A stretch of DNA of 49,027 nt from an uncultured Opitutaceae bacterium (GTDB taxonomy: Bacteria > Verrucomicrobiota > Verrucomicrobiia > Opitutales > Opitutaceae). Location: the NCBI GenBank assembly GCA_903916755.1, contig CAIWXW010000116.1, positions 1 to 49,027 of the forward strand, in the 5' to 3' direction. The notes under the pieces are model-generated. The model saw only the letters and a list, made by a program, of their open reading frames with translations, was not told the origin of the DNA and made no database searches. Below, piece after piece: positions 8,224 to 16,870 of the stretch (positions are counted from its first letter, which is position 1; the number at the start of each line of letters is the position of its first letter). A program made the translations under genes and the position numbers.

Positions 8224-9981
8224 TTAGGAAGCCGCCACTGGCTTCGCCGCGGGAGCCGGCGCCTCCTTCTTCTCGTGAAAGTCCGCCGGCGTGCCCGTCG
8301 GCTTCACATATCCGGCGCGAATCGTGAAATCGCCGAAGCGCTCCCCCGGCTGGCGCTCCGCCGCATACTGGCGGAACATCGGCTTCAGCAGCGGGACCAG
8401 CTGGTCGGCCGGCACGGAGGGCTTGTAGAGCGTGTTGAGCCGGGAGCCGTCAAAAGCGGCGCCGAGATATACGTTATACTTGCCGGGAGCCCGGCCCACC
8501 ATGGCGATTTCCGCCAGGTAGGGACGGCCGCAGCCGTTCGGGCAGCCCGTCATCCGGATCACGATCGCGTCGTCGCGCAGGCCGGCGGCTTCCATTTCCG
8601 TTTCCAGCAGGGTCACCAGCTCCGGGAGGTAGCGCTCGCTTTCGGCCAGGGCCAGGCCGCAGGTCGGCAGCGCCACGCACGCCATGGAGTTCAGGCGCAG
8701 CGCACTGGCCCCGTTGGCGGCGTCCAGCCGGTGGGCCTGCAGGAGCTGCTCGATGCGGGGCCGCTCGGCCGCGGTTACGCCGGCGATCATGAGATGCTGG
8801 TTCGGGGTGAGGCGGAAGTCGCCCCGGTGCACCTTGGCGATTTCGCGGATCGCGGACTTCATCGGATATTCCGGGGTGTCCTTCACGCGGCCGTTCTCGA
8901 TGAAGAGCGTGTAGTGGGAGGTGCCGTTCGAGCCCTCGACCCAGCCGTAGCGGTCGCCGGTGTCCGTGAACTCGAAGCGGCGCGGCGTGCCGAGCTCATA
9001 GCCCAGCCGCCCTTCCAGTTCCTTCCGGAACCAGGCCAGGCCGCGGTCGGCGATCGTGTACTTGAAGCGGGCGTGCTTGCGGTCGGTCCGGTCGCCAAAA
9101 TCCCGCTGCACCATCACGACCTTCTCCGCGACATCCACCGCCTGGTCCACCCGGCAGAAGCCGAGGACGTCCGCCAGCCGGGGGAAGGTCTCGATCTGGT
9201 TGTGTGCCATGCCCATGCCGCCGCCGACGGTGACATTGAACCCGATCAGCTTGCCGCTGTCGTCGCTGATCGCGATGTAGCCCAGGTCGTGGGCCCAGAT
9301 GTCGACGTCGTTGTGCGGGGGCACCGCGACCACGATCTTGAACTTCCGCGGCAGGTAGGTCTTCCCGTAGATCGGCTCCTCCTCGGGCTCGCCGCCGGCG
9401 ACCAATTCGCCGTCGAGGAAAAGCTCGTGGTAGGTGCGCGTGCGGGGCAGCAGGCGCTGGGTGATCGCCTCAGCCACCTTGATCACCTCCGCGTGCAGGC
9501 CCGACTGCAGCGGGTTGGGATTGCACATGACGTTGCGGTTGATGTCGCCGCAGGCGGCGATCGTGTTGAGCAGCACCCGGTTGATCTCCTTGATCGCGGG
9601 CTTCAGGTTGCCCTTGAGCACGCCATGGAACTGGAAGGACTGCCGGTTGGTGATCTTGATCGTGCCGTTGGCGTGCGAGTCCGCCAGGGCGTCGAGCGCC
9701 AGCCACTGGGCCGGCGTGCAGACGCCGCCGGTCGCGCGGATGCGCGCCATGAAACTGAAGGCCTTTTCCTTGCCCTCCTTGCGCAGCTGGTTGCGCAGGT
9801 CACGGTCGTCCTGGGCATAGACGCCGTGGAATTTCATCAGCTGGTTGGTGTCCTCGGGGATGGTCCCGGAGGAGGTGTCAGCCAGGTCGTGGGCGATCGT
9901 CCCGCGCAGGAAATTGCTTTCAGCCTTGAGCAGCTCGTTTTTGTGCAGGGGCTTGGCCGGAGTGTCGGAGGTCGGATTCAT
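8224..9981 (-). CDS. cysI: Assimilatory sulfite reductase, hemoprotein subunit
   Basis: This 585-residue siroheme/4Fe-4S enzyme reduces sulfite to sulfide with six electrons. The cluster-binding cysteines are visible as C-x5-C (CVALPTC, C435 and C441) and C-x3-C (CPNGC, C480 and C484). The N-terminal half has KITNRQSFQFHG and GDINRNVMCNPNP, typical of the CysI/ferredoxin-sulfite reductase family. Length matches CysI (about 570). It is the last gene of the cys operon; its ATG overlaps the cbiX stop as ATGA. No cysJ flavoprotein gene lies in the window, so the electron donor (a remote CysJ, or ferredoxin) is unknown. Nitrite reductase is less likely given the neighbours. Confidence 0.95.
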   Translation of the reverse strand: MNPTSDTPAKPLHKNELLKAESNFLRGTIAHDLADTSSGTIPEDTNQLMKFHGVYAQDDRDLRNQLRKEGKEKAFSFMARIRATGGVCTPAQWLALDALADSHANGTIKITNRQSFQFHGVLKGNLKPAIKEINRVLLNTIAACGDINRNVMCNPNPLQSGLHAEVIKVAEAITQRLLPRTRTYHELFLDGELVAGGEPEEEPIYGKTYLPRKFKIVVAVPPHNDVDIWAHDLGYIAISDDSGKLIGFNVTVGGGMGMAHNQIETFPRLADVLGFCRVDQAVDVAEKVVMVQRDFGDRTDRKHARFKYTIADRGLAWFRKELEGRLGYELGTPRRFEFTDTGDRYGWVEGSNGTSHYTLFIENGRVKDTPEYPMKSAIREIAKVHRGDFRLTPNQHLMIAGVTAAERPRIEQLLQAHRLDAANGASALRLNSMACVALPTCGLALAESERYLPELVTLLETEMEAAGLRDDAIVIRMTGCPNGCGRPYLAEIAMVGRAPGKYNVYLGAAFDGSRLNTLYKPSVPADQLVPLLKPMFRQYAAERQPGERFGDFTIRAGYVKPTGTPADFHEKKEAPAPAAKPVAAS

Positions 9982-10802
9982 AGGACAGCGGGTGCGGGCA
10001 GCGCTTCACGGAGCGTGCGCCCGAAAGTGGCGATGGCGAGCGGATGCGATCCGATCAGCGCGGCAAAATGGACGCGGAGACCGGGCGCGCGGGCCGCGGC
10101 GTCCCGGGCGATCTGCGCCAGGTCGCCCTGCGGGCCGGCATGCCGGCCGGGGGCGAGAAACAGCGGCGCGACGACGACATCGGCCCGATTGAAGCCCGGC
10201 GCCGCCAATTGGGCGGCAAAGAGGGGCTGGTTGAAGGCAAAGTCAGGCCCGTCGGGCGATTCCATCGAGGCGGCGGCGATCCCCGTGATCTCGCCCCCGA
10301 GCCGCGCCCGAGCCGCCGCCGTCACGTCGTCCCGGAGCTCCGCGGAGCGTCGGACGGGGCCGCCGTGATCCACGACGATGACGGCCGGGGGGGGCAGGCC
10401 GCGGGCGGCGATCGTCTCGCGCACGCGGGCGGCCAAGATCTCCCCCAGGATTTCCACCGCGGGCGACAGGCCGGCCGTGAACGCAAAGGCAAACCCGCCC
10501 TCGTCCCGGCGCAGCGTCTCGAGGTCCGCGCGGACCAGGCCGGCGATCGCGCCCTGGCCGCTGACGAAGAACGGAATGAAGAGAAACTCGGCCTCGCCCT
10601 GGCGCAGGTGCCGGCACACCCAGGGCGCGAGCGTGGCCGCGGCCGCGCCGTCCAGCTCCGCGGCGGGAATCCGGTCGCTGTGGCGCCACGACACCGCCTC
10701 CACCGCCAGCCCCGTGCGCTCCGTCAGCGCCAGGGCCGCGGCCCGCAGGGCGCGATGGGCGGCCGGCTCGAGCGAGCCATTGTCGATCAGGGCGATCCGC
10801 AT
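9978..10802 (-). CDS. CbiX/SirB-family sirohydrochlorin chelatase
   Basis: This 274-residue protein looks like two tandem CbiX-type chelatase halves. The first begins with IALIDNGSLEP, a variant of the usual HGS motif with Asn in place of His. The second half begins around VIVVDHGGPVRRS, where the metal-binding His is kept. Members insert Fe2+ or Co2+ into sirohydrochlorin. Placed between cobA and cysI it most likely makes siroheme for sulfite reductase. It starts 3 bases after the cobA stop and overlaps cysI by 4 bases. The role rests partly on context, and the second (oxidation) step of siroheme synthesis is not separately encoded here. Confidence 0.75.
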   Translation of the reverse strand: MRIALIDNGSLEPAAHRALRAAALALTERTGLAVEAVSWRHSDRIPAAELDGAAAATLAPWVCRHLRQGEAEFLFIPFFVSGQGAIAGLVRADLETLRRDEGGFAFAFTAGLSPAVEILGEILAARVRETIAARGLPPPAVIVVDHGGPVRRSAELRDDVTAAARARLGGEITGIAAASMESPDGPDFAFNQPLFAAQLAAPGFNRADVVVAPLFLAPGRHAGPQGDLAQIARDAAARAPGLRVHFAALIGSHPLAIATFGRTLREALPAPAVL

Positions 10803-10805
10803 GGC

Positions 10806-11595
10806 TCAGGAAGGGGAGGCGCCCGCCAGCTGGCGGGCGGTTTCGAACCAGGCGAGCTTGCCCGCCCAGCCGGCGAGTTCGCCGATGATGACCAGGCCGG
10901 GGGGCCGCGAAGTTCTCCGCCTTCGCCTCGTCGGCCAGGGCGCCGAGGGTCGTGGCCAGGGTGCGGTGGCGGTCCGTCGTGGCCGACTCCACCACCGCGG
11001 CGGGCGTCTCCGCGGCCAGGCCACCCGCCTGCAGCCGCCGGGCGATCGCGGCCAGGTTGTGCATGCCCATGTAAATGCAGAGGGTCGCGTCGAGGCGCCC
11101 GTAGTTCTCCCAGCGAACCGACGTCTCCGCCTTGGCGGGATCCTCATGCCCGGTGAGGAAGACGACCGCCGAGCTGTGCGCCCGGTGGGTCAGCGGGATC
11201 CCGGAATAGGCCGCGGCGGCCAGCGCCGCGGTCACGCCCGGCACGATGGCGAAGGGGATGCCGGCGGCGGCCAGCGCCTCCGCCTCCTCCCCTCCCCGGC
11301 CGAAAATGAAGGGATCGCCGCCTTTGAGCCGCACGACCGCCTTCCCCGCGCGCGCCAGCCGCACCAGCGTGGCCTCGATGTCGCTCTGGGCGCACTTGAA
11401 TTGGCCGCCCTTCTTGCCGGCGAAGATTCGCTCGCAGTCCGGCCGCGTCCAGTTCAGCACCTCCGGCGAGACCAGGTAGTCATAGACCACCGCGTCCGCC
11501 TCGCCCAGCAGACGTCGCGCCTTGAGGGTCAGCAGCTCGGGATCGCCCGGGCCGGCGCCGACAAGGTAAACGGTGCCTAGGGAGGCGTCGGCCAT
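10806..11595 (-). CDS. cobA: Uroporphyrinogen-III C-methyltransferase, interrupted by a one-base frameshift
   Basis: This SAM-dependent enzyme methylates uroporphyrinogen III to precorrin-2 for siroheme. Family motifs are VYLVGAGPGDPELLTLKA at the start, VVRLKGGDPFIFGRGGEE and VPGVTAALAAAAYSGIPLTHR. The reading frame changes at the C6 run of the mRNA (plus-strand G run at 10899-10904). Upstream the protein reads AENFAAP; after dropping one C it continues as GLVIIGELAGWAGKLAWF to a stop at 10806, giving 262 residues, the normal CobA size. Uncorrected, the frame stays open far into cbiX. The ATG overlaps the cysNC stop by one base (TGATG). An assembly error in the homopolymer is the simplest reading; slippage is possible. 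Confidence 0.85.
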
Positions 11596-13550
11596 CAGAT
11601 GTTGGCGCCCTGCTCGCCGACGGAGGCCTCGGGCGGCCGCGCCAGGCTGATCGCCAGGTCGGCGATCTTCTGCAGCGACTGCTCGACGGACTCGCGGTCG
11701 GTGTGGACCTCCACGTCGGGCGCCAGCGGCGGCTCGTAGGGTGAGTCGATCCCGGTGAAGAGCGGGATCTCGCCCGCGCGCGCCTTTTTGTAGAGCTGCT
11801 TGGGATCGCGGCGCTCGCACTCGGCGAGCGGGGCGTTGACGAAGACCTCCGCAAACGGGATGCCGCGCTCGCGGGCCTTCTCCGCCACCATCGCGCGGTC
11901 CGCGCGGAAGGGTGAGATCAGGGCCGCGATGACGACCACGCCGGCGTCGGCGAGATGCAGGGCGAGCTCGGTGGCGCGGCGCAGGTTCTCGCGGCGGTCC
12001 TCGGGCGTGAAGCCCAGGTTCTTGCTGAGCCCGGTGCGCAGCATGTCGCCGTCGAGGATGGCCGCCAGGACGCCGGAGCGAAGCAGGCGGGCTTCCAGCG
12101 CGGTGGCCAGGGTCGTCTTGCCCGAGCCCGACAGGCCCGTCATCCAGAGGACGGCGCCGCGGTGGCCCAGGAGGGCCGCGCGGTGGGCGGGTGAGCCGCC
12201 CGCGGCATCGGCCGACGCGCTCTCATCGCGCAGCACCGCGTCGATCACGCCGCCGCCGGCGATCCGGCGGCCGCGCATCAAGACAAAGCGGCCCAGGGAG
12301 GGGATCCGGCCACCCGCGTCGCAGGCGATCGGGCGCCGCACGCGGAGGCGGATTTCCGCGACCTCGTGGCGCTTCACCTCGCTGGCGGGACCGGTGCTGC
12401 TTTCCAGGGTCGTCGCATCCAGCGTGCGCTGGATCGCGACCAGGCGGGCCTCGCCCTGCTGGGTGCCCAGCCGGAGCGGGACCAGTTCGCCCACCTTGAG
12501 GGGCTCGGCGTGCAGCCAGAAGATGCGCGCGGTGAAGACGTGCGCCTCCGTGGGGGTGTCACCGGGGGGGGCGCCGATCTGGCCGCGCTCGACGAAGAGC
12601 TCGTCCTCGAGGGTGATGGCGACCGCGCGCCCCGCACCCACGGGCCCCTGGCCCACGCCGGGAGCGGTGGCCGGCCAGTTCTCGATCGTCTTCACCCGGC
12701 TGCGCTTGCCGCCGGGATGGAATTCAATCGGGTCGCCGGCGGACACCTGGCCCGCCTCGACCATGCCGGCCACGATGCGGCGGGCGTCGAAGCGGTAGAT
12801 GTCCTGCACGCTGAGGCGGAGCGGCGCGCCCTGAATGGGCGGCGTGGCGCGGAACTGCTCCAGCGCCTCGAGGAGGGCCGGCCCCTTGTACCAGGGCAGG
12901 TTTTCGCTCGCCTTGATCAGGCCGTCGCCGCGCTTGGCCGAGATCGGGACGAAGTGCGTCGGCTTGGCCCCCAGGCGGCCGAGAAACTCGCCGAGCTCGG
13001 CGCTGATGCGGTCGAAGACCTTCTGGTCGTAGTTGACCAGGTCCATCTTGTTCACCGCGACGACGATTTGCTTCAGCCCGAGGAGGGAGAGCAGGAAACC
13101 GTGCCGGCGGGTCTGCTCGCGCAGGCCCTCCTTGGCGTCGACGATCAGGATCGCGGCGTCCGCGCTGGCGGCGCCGGTGATCATGTTCTTCAGGAATTCC
13201 TTGTGGCCCGGCGCGTCGATGATGGTGAACGCCCGGCGCGGAGTGCTGAACGGCACGCGCGTCGTGTCCATCGTGATGTTCTGGGCCTGTTCCTCCAGGA
13301 GGGCGTCGAGGAGGAAGGCGTACTCGAATTCCATGCCCTCGGCCTTGGCCGCGGCCTGCAGGCGCTCGATCTTGCCGTCCTCGACCGAATTGGTGTCGAA
13401 GAGCAGCCGCCCGATCAGCGTCGACTTGCCGTGGTCGACATGGCCGACGACCACCAGGTTGAGATGGTCGAGCGCGGCGGAAACCGGCTTGGAGGGGGCG
13501 GAGCGGGGGGCGGCGGGCACGGGCGTGGTGGAAGGTGAAAGGGTGCTCAT
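11595..13550 (-). CDS. cysNC: Bifunctional sulfate adenylyltransferase subunit 1 / adenylylsulfate kinase
   Basis: This 651-residue fusion has two parts. The N-terminal part is the CysN GTPase of ATP sulfurylase, with G1 [10 protein letters not shown]3 DAPGHKEF and G4 NKMD, followed by beta-barrel domains to about residue 450. From about residue 466 comes the CysC APS kinase, with P-loop GLSGSGKTT, the [16 protein letters not shown] region and ISPFRADR. CysN with CysD makes APS from sulfate and ATP driven by GTP; CysC phosphorylates APS to PAPS. This matches the PAPS-type CysH encoded two genes upstream. The ATG lies 10 bases after the cysD stop, within one operon. Confidence 0.96.
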
Positions 13551-13560
13551 CGGAAATGCC

Positions 13561-14364
13561 TCACATGAACCCCTTGGCCCGCAGCTTCTGCATGGCGTTG
13601 CGTTCGTGATGATCCTGGGCGCGGCCGGCGCGCTCGGAGGTCTTGGTCGTCTTCAGCTCCTCGATGATGTCGGCGATCGTCGCCGCGTTGCTCTCGACCG
13701 GCTTGCTGATCGGCATGCAGCCGAGCGACCGGAAGCGCTTCCCCTCGCGGGAGAAGTACATCCCCGGGAGCGGCACCTTCTCGCGCTCGAGGTAGCGCCA
13801 GATGTCGATCTCGTTCCAGTCGAGCAGCGGCTGCACGCGGACGTGCTCCCCCGCCCCGACCTCGGTCGTGAAGTGGTTCCAGAACTCCGGCGGCTGGTCC
13901 TTGTAGTCCCACTCGAAGTCGGAGTTGCGCGGCGAAAAGTAGCGCTCCTTCGCCCGGGTCGAGTCCTCGTCGCGGCGGATGCCGGTGATCAGGGCGTCGA
14001 ACTTGTGCGCGGCCAGCACCTGCTGCAGCGCGACCGTCTTCAGCTCGTGGGTCACCGTGACCGGGTCGTTGTTCTCATAGCCGATGCCGCGGGCGCGGGC
14101 CTCCTGGTTGACCCAGACGATGAGATCGAGGCCGTAGTGCTCCTTGGCCCAGGCGCGGAAGTCGAGCATCTCCGGGAACTCGTAGGTCGTGTCGACGTGC
14201 ACGACGGGGAACGGGATGTGACCCGCGAAGGCCTTCATGGCGAGCCAGACCAGGACATTCGAGTCCTTGCCCATGGACCAGAGCATGGCGGGCCGCTCAA
14301 AGGCGTGAAAGGCCTCGCGCATCAGGTAGATGCTGTGGGATTCGAGTTCGTCGAGATGAGACAT
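13561..14364 (-). CDS. cysD: Sulfate adenylyltransferase subunit 2
   Basis: This 267-residue protein is the catalytic nucleotide-alpha-hydrolase-type subunit of ATP sulfurylase. It carries the PP-loop motif SMGKDSNVL near residue 30, [13 protein letters not shown], and the conserved [19 protein letters not shown] and [17 protein letters not shown] segments. The C-terminal [14 protein letters not shown] is also typical of CysD. It is slightly shorter than the usual 300 residues but no domain is missing. It sits 12 bases after cysH and 10 before cysNC. Its leader has no Shine-Dalgarno motif but a pyrimidine stretch (CTTTTTCATCC), so expression may depend on coupling to cysH. Confidence 0.96.
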
Positions 14365-14376
14365 GGATGAAAAAGA

Positions 14377-15102
14377 TTAGATGACCGGGCCGGAGTCCTC
14401 GTGCAGGCCGCACTCCCGCTTGAGGCCGAAGAAACGGGTCTGCTCGGGCGTCAGTTCGGCGGTCAGCGGCCGGGACGTGTGCCGGTCGCCGATCGAGACG
14501 TAGCCCTGATCCCAGAGCGGATGATAGGGAAGCTGCTCGGCCTGGAGGTAGCGGTGCACGTCGCGGTCGGTCCAGTCGATGATGGGCAGGACCTTGATCC
14601 GCCCGTCCTGGCGGCCCGCGACCTCGAGGTTCTCGCGGGTGCTGGACTGCGAGCGGCGCAGCCCCGTGAGCCACGCCTGCGCGCCGAGCTCGTGGAGCGC
14701 GCGCTGCATGGGCTCGACCTTGGCGATCTTGTTGTACGTCTCCAGGCCCTCGATGCCGTTTTCCCAGAGCCGGCCGTGACGGGCCTCCATCCAGGCGGGG
14801 GACTCCACCGCGCGGTAGACCTTCAGGTTAAGCCGCAGCCGGCGGGTCAGCTCGTCCGCAAAGCGGTAGGTCTCGGCAAACAGATAGCCGGTGTCGATGA
14901 AGACGACCGGGATGTCCGGCCACGCCTTCGTCGCGAGGCTGAGCATGACCGCCGCCTGCGCCCCGAAGCTCGAGCTCAGGACCAGGGCGCCGGGAAACTC
15001 CGCCACCGCCCAGGCGATGCGTTCCTCGGCTGAAGCGCGGGATAGCCGGCCGTTCACCGCGGCCAGGTCAACCGCGGGTGAAACTCTTTCCGCAGTCGCC
15101 AT
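14377..15102 (-). CDS. cysH: Phosphoadenosine phosphosulfate (PAPS) reductase
   Basis: This 241-residue protein reduces PAPS to sulfite with thioredoxin. It shows [12 protein letters not shown] (PP-loop-like), [40 protein letters not shown] and the catalytic C-terminal ECGLH (Cys231). The paired cysteines that bind a 4Fe-4S cluster in APS reductases are absent, so PAPS is the expected substrate, consistent with the CysC domain encoded in the same operon. It is the first full-length gene of the operon. Its ATG follows, after only three bases, the stop of the cysteine-rich leader frame. That frame is in the same reading phase, so UGA readthrough would extend CysH. Confidence 0.96.
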
Positions 15103-15105
15103 CTT

Positions 15106-15186
15106 TCAGTTCGGGCAGCAGCAAAAACCCGGGAGGCAGGAGCAAAGCGCACAGTAGGCGGATTGGGCGGCAACCTTGGTTTTCAT
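15106..15186 (-). CDS. Polycysteine leader peptide of the cys operon (26 residues)
   Basis: A 26-codon frame begins at the ATG at 15184-15186 and ends at the TGA at 15106-15108, three bases before the cysH ATG. The peptide begins MKTKVAAQSAY and then has Cys at positions 12, 15, 17, 22, 23 and 24, with three in a row, ending PN. Six cysteines in 26 residues is far above the usual frequency, in front of an operon whose end product becomes cysteine. Polycysteine leader frames that control sulfur genes are known from mycobacteria. By analogy, ribosome pausing at Cys codons when Cys-tRNA is low could change translation or transcription of cysH. The control mechanism is inference; the frame and its codons are read directly. 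Confidence 0.7.
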   Translation of the reverse strand: MKTKVAAQSAYCALCSCLPGFCCCPN

Positions 15187-15291
15187 GCTGGAGGGATAAA
15201 CCATGCAGCCGGGTGCGGGAACGTCAAGGCTCCGGGCGGTTCTAAGCGGGGTCTAATTCCTGTCATAAAATTTGTCACTCGGGCCTAAATC

Positions 15292-15304
15292 TTTGTTCGA
15301 CAAA
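15292..15304. promoter_or_regulatory. Inverted repeat in the cysH-phoH divergent region
   Basis: The sequence TTTGTTCGACAAA is a 5-base inverted repeat around a 3-base centre. It sits in the 160-base gap between the divergent cys operon leader and the phoH gene, an AT-richer patch than its surroundings. A further TTTGTC lies at 15271-15276. This could be an operator for a dimeric regulator of one or both transcripts. No promoter boxes are clear enough to place it relative to a start site. Confidence 0.3.
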
Positions 15305-15346
15305 CGGCCCGGCACTTGCTCAGTTACTCACAAGATATCCACACCG

Positions 15347-16870
15347 ATGGAAAACCTGCGCGGGGCGCTAGCCCCCAATTCGCGGATCAGGGTGGCGAAG
15401 AAGGTAAAGACCTTCGTGCTCGACACGAATGTTCTCCTCCACGACCCCCAATCCATCTTCAAATTTGAGGATAACAACCTCGCCATACCCGTGGAGGTCC
15501 TCGAGGAGCTCGACGCGATAAAAGGCGAGCAATCGAGCGAGCGGGGGCGCAACGCCCGCCGCGTCCACCGCATCCTCCAGGAGCTCCTCCCCGACACCCG
15601 CTCGATGCAGGAAGGCGTCGAGATGCGCAATGGGGGCACCCTCTCGGTCATCATCAATCCATACCTCTCCGACCCCAGCCGCCGGTCCCCGGCGATGGAG
15701 CGGCTGCGGGCCATCCTGCCGGACCTCTCGAAGAAGGACAACCGGATCATAGCCGCGGCCCTTTTCGTGCAGGAGCAGTATCCGCCGCCGACCATCCTGG
15801 TCACCAAGGACGTCAACGTGCAGCTGAAGGCGCGGGCGCTGGGCCTCGAATCCGAGGATTACCTGAGCGACAAGGTGCCGGAGGCCGACGAGGAGGCCAG
15901 CTACCGGGAGATCCCGCTGACCATCTATGAGCTCCAGCGCTTCTGCTCCGAGGGCGAGTTCGAGATCGACGGCGATACCGCCCAGAATCTCTTCCTGAAC
16001 GAATACCTGCTCCTCCGTTCGGACGAGGGCAAGACCATGCCGGCCCGCTACCACGGCGATGGCATGGCCCGCCGGCTCAAGATCCCGGAATTCGTCAAGG
16101 CCCCGGGCGGCATCCCGGTGCGCCCGCGCAACCTGGAGCAGCAGTTCCTGATGGACGCCCTGCTGGACGACAGCATCCAGATGATCACCTGCTTCGGCAA
16201 GGCCGGGACGGGCAAGACCCTGCTCTCGACCGCGTGCGCCCTGCACCAGACCTCGGACGAACATTCGAAGTATGACGGCGTCTCGATCACCCGGCCGATC
16301 ATCACGCTCGGCAAAGACATCGGGTTTCTCCCCGGCACCCTCGACGAGAAGATGAAGCCCTGGCTGCAGCCCTACTACGACGCGCTCGAGGTGCTGATTC
16401 CCTCGAAGCCGCCAAAGGAGCCGCAGTTCGCGGCCAAGAAGGTCTCGAAGAAGAAACACCGCCAGTACAACGAGCCCTTCGCGCCGGTCAGCAGCTTCGC
16501 CCCGTCGGGCGGCCATGGCTCCGTGAATCCGGTCAAGCCCTACGAGCGCCTGCTGAAAAGCGGGCTGGTGGAGCTCGAGGCCCTCTGCTTCATCCGCGGC
16601 CGCTCGATCGCCCGGCGCTTCTTCATCCTCGACGAGGCCCAGCAGCTGACGCCCCACGAGGTGAAGACCGTCATCACCCGCATTTCGGAGGGCTCGAAGA
16701 TCGTGCTGATCGGCGACCCGGCGCAGATCGACAATCCCTACGTCGACTCGCGCAGCAACGGGCTCGTCTACTGCCACAACCGCATGAAGGGCCAGAGCAT
16801 CGCGGCCCATGTGAAGCTGACCAAGGGCGAGCGCTCGAAGCTGGCGGAGCTGGCGGCGGACCTCCTGTAG
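15347..16870 (+). CDS. PIN-PhoH family ATPase
   Basis: This 507-residue protein joins an N-terminal PIN nuclease-like domain to a C-terminal PhoH ATPase domain. The PIN part has TFVLDTNVLLHDP, with its acidic residue, and VEVLEELDAIK. The PhoH part has Walker A FGKAGTGKT (residues about 283-291), GFLPGTLDEKM and Walker B FFILDEAQQLTPHEVK. Characterised PIN-PhoH (PhoH2) proteins are RNA helicases with ribonuclease activity. Between the ATPase motifs is a lysine-rich insertion (KKVSKKKHRQY) plus a Gly/Ser stretch. I take the ATG at 15347, since the upstream frame extension lacks family sequence. It is transcribed away from the cys operon. Confidence 0.9.
   Translation: MENLRGALAPNSRIRVAKKVKTFVLDTNVLLHDPQSIFKFEDNNLAIPVEVLEELDAIKGEQSSERGRNARRVHRILQELLPDTRSMQEGVEMRNGGTLSVIINPYLSDPSRRSPAMERLRAILPDLSKKDNRIIAAALFVQEQYPPPTILVTKDVNVQLKARALGLESEDYLSDKVPEADEEASYREIPLTIYELQRFCSEGEFEIDGDTAQNLFLNEYLLLRSDEGKTMPARYHGDGMARRLKIPEFVKAPGGIPVRPRNLEQQFLMDALLDDSIQMITCFGKAGTGKTLLSTACALHQTSDEHSKYDGVSITRPIITLGKDIGFLPGTLDEKMKPWLQPYYDALEVLIPSKPPKEPQFAAKKVSKKKHRQYNEPFAPVSSFAPSGGHGSVNPVKPYERLLKSGLVELEALCFIRGRSIARRFFILDEAQQLTPHEVKTVITRISEGSKIVLIGDPAQIDNPYVDSRSNGLVYCHNRMKGQSIAAHVKLTKGERSKLAELAADLL

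Follow-up and report, generated by a model that had tools for sequence, protein, structure and literature searches.

The short reading frame that ends directly in front of cysH probably acts as a Cys-responsive, ribosome-mediated attenuator of the cysH-cysD-cysNC-cobA-cbiX-cysI operon, to judge from its sequence and from the pattern of its conservation. The leader would be translated, Cys-tRNA would be the signal and starvation would raise expression; the level at which the predicted attenuator has its output is proposed with less confidence. The window, i.e. the whole stretch of 49,027 nucleotides from a soil bacterium that was analysed, carries the leader on its minus strand. Translation of 15186-15106 gives MKTKVAAQSAYCALCSCLPGFCCCPN followed by a stop, with 26 sense codons of which six (codons 12, 15, 17, 22, 23 and 24) encode Cys, and the stop TGA (15108-15106) is followed by AAG and then by the cysH ATG (15102-15100) in the same phase. 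This is the frame given in the preliminary description, with 26 codons, six of them for Cys, ending in phase three bases before the cysH ATG.

15106..15186, minus strand: leader frame (uORF), by translation, with counterparts in 14/14 genomes with the same cysH lineage
15115..15123, minus strand: terminal Cys-codon triplet TGC TGC TGC, leader codons 22-24
15106..15108, minus strand: leader stop codon, TGA in the window, 3 nt 5' of the cysH ATG

The Cys triplet is unremarkable per se, because nine TGYTGYTGY strings occur on the two strands of the window against 1.6 expected, and the weight of the finding rests on its position and conservation. The genes behind the leader are the following.

14377..15102, minus strand: cysH, phosphoadenylyl-sulfate reductase, without a Shine-Dalgarno sequence (PF01507; TIGR02057, PAPS reductase, above cut-off)
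13561..14364, minus strand: cysD (NF003587 above cut-off)
11595..13550, minus strand: cysNC, CysN fused to APS kinase (APS kinase model above cut-off)
10799..11577, minus strand: cobA, uroporphyrinogen-III C-methyltransferase (SUMT), start provisional (PF00590; TIGR01469 above cut-off)
9978..10802, minus strand: cbiX-like gene (PF01903, 29.8 bits against a cut-off of 22)
8224..9981, minus strand: cysI, sulfite reductase (NF010029 above cut-off; PF01077, PF03460)

The gene order assigned earlier is thereby matched by Pfam and NCBIfam, with CbiX, for which no NCBIfam match was obtained, assigned by Pfam alone, and with the CysN-CysC fusion scoring below the cut-offs of both the CysN model and the fused CysNC model. 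The score of CysI against TIGR02041 is just below the cut-off. The products of the operon make sulfide for cysteine, which supports the attenuator, and cysD comes after cysH in all 14 loci that carry the leader.

CysH was searched for in 252 genomes of the family and 13 of the genus, and in samples of 372 genomes of the order and 387 of the phylum. Among the 252 family genomes a sharp step separates 14 with a CysH of 68-100% identity (E 2e-110 or better) from the remaining matches, which have at most 65% identity (E 2e-92 or weaker). These 14 comprise 11 of the window's genus, where CysH is present in 11/13 genomes, both of the genomes covered from a second genus (2/2) and one genome, G139, of a third; the two genomes of the window's genus with no CysH match at E 1e-20, G038 and G162, are 94% and 95% complete. 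A Cys-bearing frame with its stop 2, 3 or 4 nt before cysH was found in 14/14 genomes of this lineage, with a likely start at one aligned column (ATG, or GTG in L003 and L009). In the window an additional in-frame ATG is present at 15204, six codons upstream of the leader start (product MVYPSSMKTK...). The C-terminal ends of the leaders are FCCCPN, CACCCSD, CVCCCFD, ACCCCFD, VCCCVF, RCCCPLH and ACACCPLP in the first seven, and CDCCCPF, CACCCPN, CACARCRLN, ACCRLP, CVCCCPQ, ARCCLY and VCCLLQ in the other seven, so that the last nine codons hold at least two Cys in 14/14 and at least three in 11/14. The three leaders with only two tail Cys codons (L010, L031 and L032) weaken the attenuator. The leader of L031 is also present, identical, in the Opitutaceae MAG palsa_1380 (L033); this locus, and L034 which repeats L009, were left out of the counts. 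One of the scans masked long antisense frames and therefore missed the leaders of L007, L010, L012, L031 and L032, while two other scans were unmasked.

Such frames are rare by chance. Each of the 14 regions upstream of cysH (150 nt) was dinucleotide-shuffled 4,000 times. The rate per locus was 0 to 0.0018 for frames that stop at most 12 nt from cysH and carry three or more Cys among their last nine codons, compared with presence in 11/14 real loci, and 0.0025 to 0.019 for those with two or more, compared with 14/14. That the Cys tail and the position of the stop are kept in all 14 genomes and are rare in shuffles supports the attenuator, and so does the observation that only 1 of 180 distinct other cysH loci has a comparable frame under a looser definition (a CC pair or three Cys in the last nine codons, and a stop near a possible cysH start). 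This count was obtained after identical proteins had been collapsed and loci with an alignment score below 250 left out, and a few of the 180 loci have little upstream sequence because a contig end is close (e.g. 85 nt in L035). The single case, L065 from Ectothiorhodospiraceae, has the frame LGFVCSSTMRRGTNRCCSLY ending 21 nt before a possible cysH start and is probably due to chance. Since cysH follows other genes in many proteobacterial loci, the other Opitutaceae are the fairer contrast, and the Cys leader is absent from the other cysH loci examined in this family. Nor was a Cys leader found at 20 cysS and SATase-type (SATase_N) loci in the genus, a set that includes some other synthetases, and this weakens the attenuator.

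The stop codon of the leader is TGA in one locus, TAA in four and TAG in nine, and this change of identity at an unchanged place also supports the attenuator. It bears on the secondary reading of the preliminary description, in which UGA readthrough, or alternatively a frameshift, would add a Cys-rich N-terminus to CysH. The frame in the window does invite this reading, being in phase with cysH and ending in UGA, but the stop is TAA or TAG in 13/14 loci, and two of the 14 leaders are shifted in phase relative to cysH, in opposite directions (L004, gap 2 nt; L010, gap 4 nt). Readthrough as a shared function was rejected on these grounds, and the probability that we would give to any such extension is close to nil.

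Number and spacing of the Cys codons are variable over the 14 leaders, from two adjacent to six. A Cys-rich C-terminus could also be expected of a nascent peptide that binds copper, another metal or a thiol on the ribosome, similarly to CruR, which senses copper via a CXXC motif (in the account of PMC9426467). The variable number and spacing, the absence of a RAPP arrest motif from the 14 leader peptides and the role of the operon in sulfate assimilation all speak against such a sensor, and we regard it as improbable.

The body of the leader drifts, as it should if little besides the Cys codons and the stop is of importance. For eight equal-length leaders from the genus (the remaining six of the 14 differ in length or lineage and were not used), the leader frame has a pN/pS of 0.65 versus 0.89 and 0.88 in the two other frames, which is in favour of the attenuator, and pS in the leader is about 0.47. 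The alignment proposed in the preliminary description, in which Cys codons and stop should be kept while the rest drifts, thus came out positive in 14/14 loci, again with three leaders having two tail Cys only. A maximum-likelihood tree of 124 CysH (the 14 with leader and 110 others among those listed, L209 onward being left out) groups the 14 leader-bearing proteins as a single clade (100/99), which lies with CysH of Verrucomicrobiae and proteobacteria and is separate from other members of the family. As far as these genomes indicate, the leader belongs to one cysH lineage and not to the Opitutaceae at large, and was perhaps brought in together with it; of the scope suggested earlier, conservation within Opitutaceae, what stands is conservation in the 14 relatives with this cysH lineage, and what falls is generality in the family. 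The single clade means that the 14 genomes are therefore not independent cases. Together with the weak purifying signal, this would suit a frame that merely came with the cysH lineage by descent and is now functionless. However, the stops have switched among TGA, TAA and TAG while staying in place, the two out-of-phase leaders retain their tails and stops, and the pS of the leader implies ample room for decay, so that there seems to be little chance of a mere remnant. In G139 the leader-bearing cysH (L004, G139:C106) is on a 19-kb contig, and the other members of its genus (g7) have only distant CysH matches among the matches listed; this could be either a transfer or a mis-binned contig.

Further upstream, the motif TATGACA (15261-15267, minus strand, in the window) occurs at aligned places 5' of cysH in 13/14 leader-bearing loci, and L002 carries TATTGACA in its place. 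The ATG of the motif shares the frame of the Cys leader in 11/13 loci; the frame that it opens in L001 and L009 is short and overlaps the leader start with its end. In the window's genus TATGACA is followed by a CTTGTCAAA or CTTGTAAA string, forming a loose dyad. The motif is unexplained, candidate roles being an operator, part of a promoter or the true leader start. For the longer leader that would begin at this ATG, pN/pS is 0.78 versus 0.88 and 0.98 in the other frames (7 loci, with L005 and L012 left out too), which is too weak to decide. The divergent neighbour of the operon encodes a PIN-PhoH fusion protein (15347-16870, plus strand).

The anti-Shine-Dalgarno pairing upstream of cysH is no stronger than -1.7 kcal/mol in 14/14 loci, while 27-29% of random 17-mers are as weak as that and the random median is -3.0. 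At the leader starts the pairing is weaker than the random median in 11 of 13 usable values, L007 being left out because its value was taken at a wrong start. No terminator-like and no promoter-like consensus site was found in 14950-15420. The missing cysH Shine-Dalgarno sequence, the lack of a terminator-like site and the constraint in cysH codons 2-17 described below support the attenuator. The first of these is suggestive only, because in the window cysD also lacks a Shine-Dalgarno sequence (cysNC has one), and this, together with the lack of a clear rut signature, weakens the attenuator. C exceeds G over the leader in 13/14 loci, yet more strongly inside cysH, and such a zone is too slight to decide for Rho. 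The leader in the window does not have a strong structure (181/200 shuffles fold at least as well), no RNA family of Rfam exceeded its gathering score, and the sole match near the leader up to E 5 was narK, far below the cut-off. The short gap had been taken to favour translational coupling or Rho over a terminator hairpin, and this fits the absence of a terminator-like site and of a cysH Shine-Dalgarno sequence together with the gap of 2-4 nt. The gap and the lack of a Shine-Dalgarno sequence in 14/14 loci would also suit a constitutive stop-start coupling, in which the leader mainly brings ribosomes to the cysH start and the Cys codons are of minor importance; re-initiation from close leader genes has indeed been proposed as a general booster (PMC4833913). 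The distance peak given in that paper is however 10-11 bp, not 2-4, and coupling leaves unexplained both the persistence of the Cys tail amid a drifting body and its place before this operon. We therefore consider constitutive coupling to be an unlikely, although not far-fetched, account of the leader.

The most interesting part of the finding is a constrained element inside cysH, which adds to the earlier reading of the region a nucleotide-level constraint within the first 17 codons of the gene.

15052..15099, minus strand: cysH codons 2-17, nucleotide-level constraint (synonymous identity 0.806 versus 0.566 elsewhere)
15090..15098, minus strand: segment A, cysH nt 5-13, can pair with B
15069..15077, minus strand: segment B, cysH nt 26-34, can pair with A or C
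15057..15065, minus strand: segment C, cysH nt 38-46, can pair with B and more weakly with the Cys tract

Synonymous identity is here the share of identical codons among pairs with the same amino acid. The level of codons 2-17 is reached by 0/211 later 16-codon windows and by 0/20,000 random column sets, and between the two subclades alone the values are 0.756 versus 0.526. Codon 3 is ACT in 13/13 cases of Thr, compared with 3/188 Thr codons from codon 21 on, and codons 4, 10 and 15 are GCG in 14/14, compared with 131/315 of the later Ala codons. In three leader-less cysH groups of the family (12, 13 and 14 loci) the first scorable windows have 0.36-0.49 against 0.44-0.58 overall, without a rise, where the N-termini differ in length and sequence and give too few comparable pairs to score the first codons. 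In the nine-member subclade, windows starting at codons 120-123 reach 0.88-0.96, versus 0.87 at best for the 5' end, and are thus as constrained or more so, which weakens the attenuator. This second stretch of high synonymous identity, at about codons 119-130, is unexplained.

The invariant strings (ACUGCGGA-type, CCGCGG and CCGCGG) make two mutually exclusive 9-bp stems possible in early cysH. Over the 14 genomes A:B is paired in 95.2% of cells (22-54% when slid) and B:C in 96.0% (33-71% when slid); the Cys tract with segment C is paired in 94.9%, but still in 81.6% when slid by -3. RNAalifold combines the stem A:B with pairing of the Cys tract to segment C. Over the 14 genomes no covariation beyond shuffles was found for A:B, B:C or the pairing of the Cys tract with C, the 14 cysH 5' ends have no extra folding stability compared with synonymous shuffles (z from -1.23 to +0.63), and masking by the ribosome gave no consistent stem switch over the loci, the 'open' value of the stop state, which includes masked bases, being left out. 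These three results count against the attenuator. It is tempting to speculate that the first 17 codons are themselves the switch: because the leader stop abuts cysH, the same nucleotides would encode the CysH N-terminus and form the stems A:B and B:C that read the position of the ribosome, and this would have arisen in a single cysH lineage of Verrucomicrobiota independently of mycobacteria. We put this forward tentatively, as a doubtful but real possibility.

In the mechanism that we propose for the Cys-responsive attenuator, ribosomes on the leader would meet the Cys codons just 5' of its stop. With scarce Cys-tRNA they would stall at these codons, the nearest of which starts 14-19 nt before the cysH AUG, and with plentiful Cys-tRNA they would terminate 2-4 nt before it. 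A ribosome reaches about 12 nt beyond the start of its A-site codon, so that a stall at this distance would cover or crowd the cysH start and not simply open it. This position, over or beside the start, weakens the attenuator, and a ribosome at the leader stop would reach the first bases of segment A. As output we favour either that the stalled lead ribosome would keep Rho off the message, or that it would leave early cysH free for one of the two alternative stems, A:B forming instead of B:C as in a trp leader. Release at the leader stop, beside a start without a Shine-Dalgarno sequence, would leave the message open to termination or to poor re-initiation. From plain re-initiation coupling one would expect less cysH on starvation, a response of the opposite sign. 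Sparing from Rho, the alternative stems and plain coupling cannot be told apart from our data.

Two sequence features of a Cys-codon leader attenuator are seen here, namely Cys codons clustered near a stop before a sulfur operon, and Cys codons and stop kept while the rest drifts. Trp-type attenuators have their regulatory codons just before the leader stop and use mutually exclusive stems. The present leader resembles them in having regulatory codons just 5' of its stop, with mutually exclusive stems possible right behind, and it differs in that the stems lie in coding sequence, the switch is a candidate only, and the U-run terminator is missing: no hairpin with U-run was found between leader and cysH in 14950-15420, and the gap in the 14 loci is only 2-4 nt. 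The uORFC-8-2 motif of Rhodobacterales (PMC8632094) likewise combines two tandem Cys codons in a leader with a position ahead of a cysteine-related gene, but as described in that source it precedes cysS and closes with a U-run that would suit an intrinsic terminator, neither of which applies here. CruR (DUF2946), a copper-responsive leader of Bordetella in which a stalled lead ribosome limits Rho (PMC9426467), is a translated leader with Cys, as the present one would be, and offers a precedent for a stalled lead ribosome that limits Rho. In the text of that source its CXXC is conserved, and it has a RAPP arrest motif that is conserved in spacing, whereas the spacing of Cys varies here and the 14 leader peptides have neither conserved Cys spacing nor RAPP.

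The closest parallel is with the leader peptides described in PMC1262725, which have Cys runs near the stop and, in that account, no terminators, and which precede cys operons of Mycobacterium and P. acnes and also cbs of B. longum. These mycobacterial leaders were predicted in PMC1262725 and later tested by Canestrari et al. 2020 (via PMC9031893, PMC13236596), and in M. smegmatis cysteine availability controls the genes behind the leader (same sources). In mycobacteria such leaders stand at several cysteine loci of a genome, as a cysteine-wide system. Such Cys-run leaders before cys operons, and a stalled lead ribosome that limits Rho, are precedents that support the attenuator. No Cys-codon leader in Verrucomicrobiota was found in searches of the open-licence literature. 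The leader in the window is similar to the mycobacterial ones in being a short frame with a Cys run near the stop, before a cys operon and with no terminator hairpin found, as far as the sources describe them. It is different in belonging to another phylum, in its stop 2-4 nt from a cysH that lacks a Shine-Dalgarno sequence and in the constrained element inside the first gene; the mycobacterial polycysteine leaders are moreover described as leaderless, while the present leader is known from sequence alone. The role of a 'cysteine sensor' ascribed to the leader in the preliminary description would agree with all this, and the leader probably serves as a cysteine gauge built into the operon, a type that has until now been reported chiefly from mycobacteria and related bacteria. 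Thanks to the constraint inside cysH one can test how a leader acts without room for a terminator, and the occurrence of such leaders in a further lineage, with another arrangement, would point to a recurrent tendency of cells to control sulfate assimilation by sensing Cys-tRNA directly.
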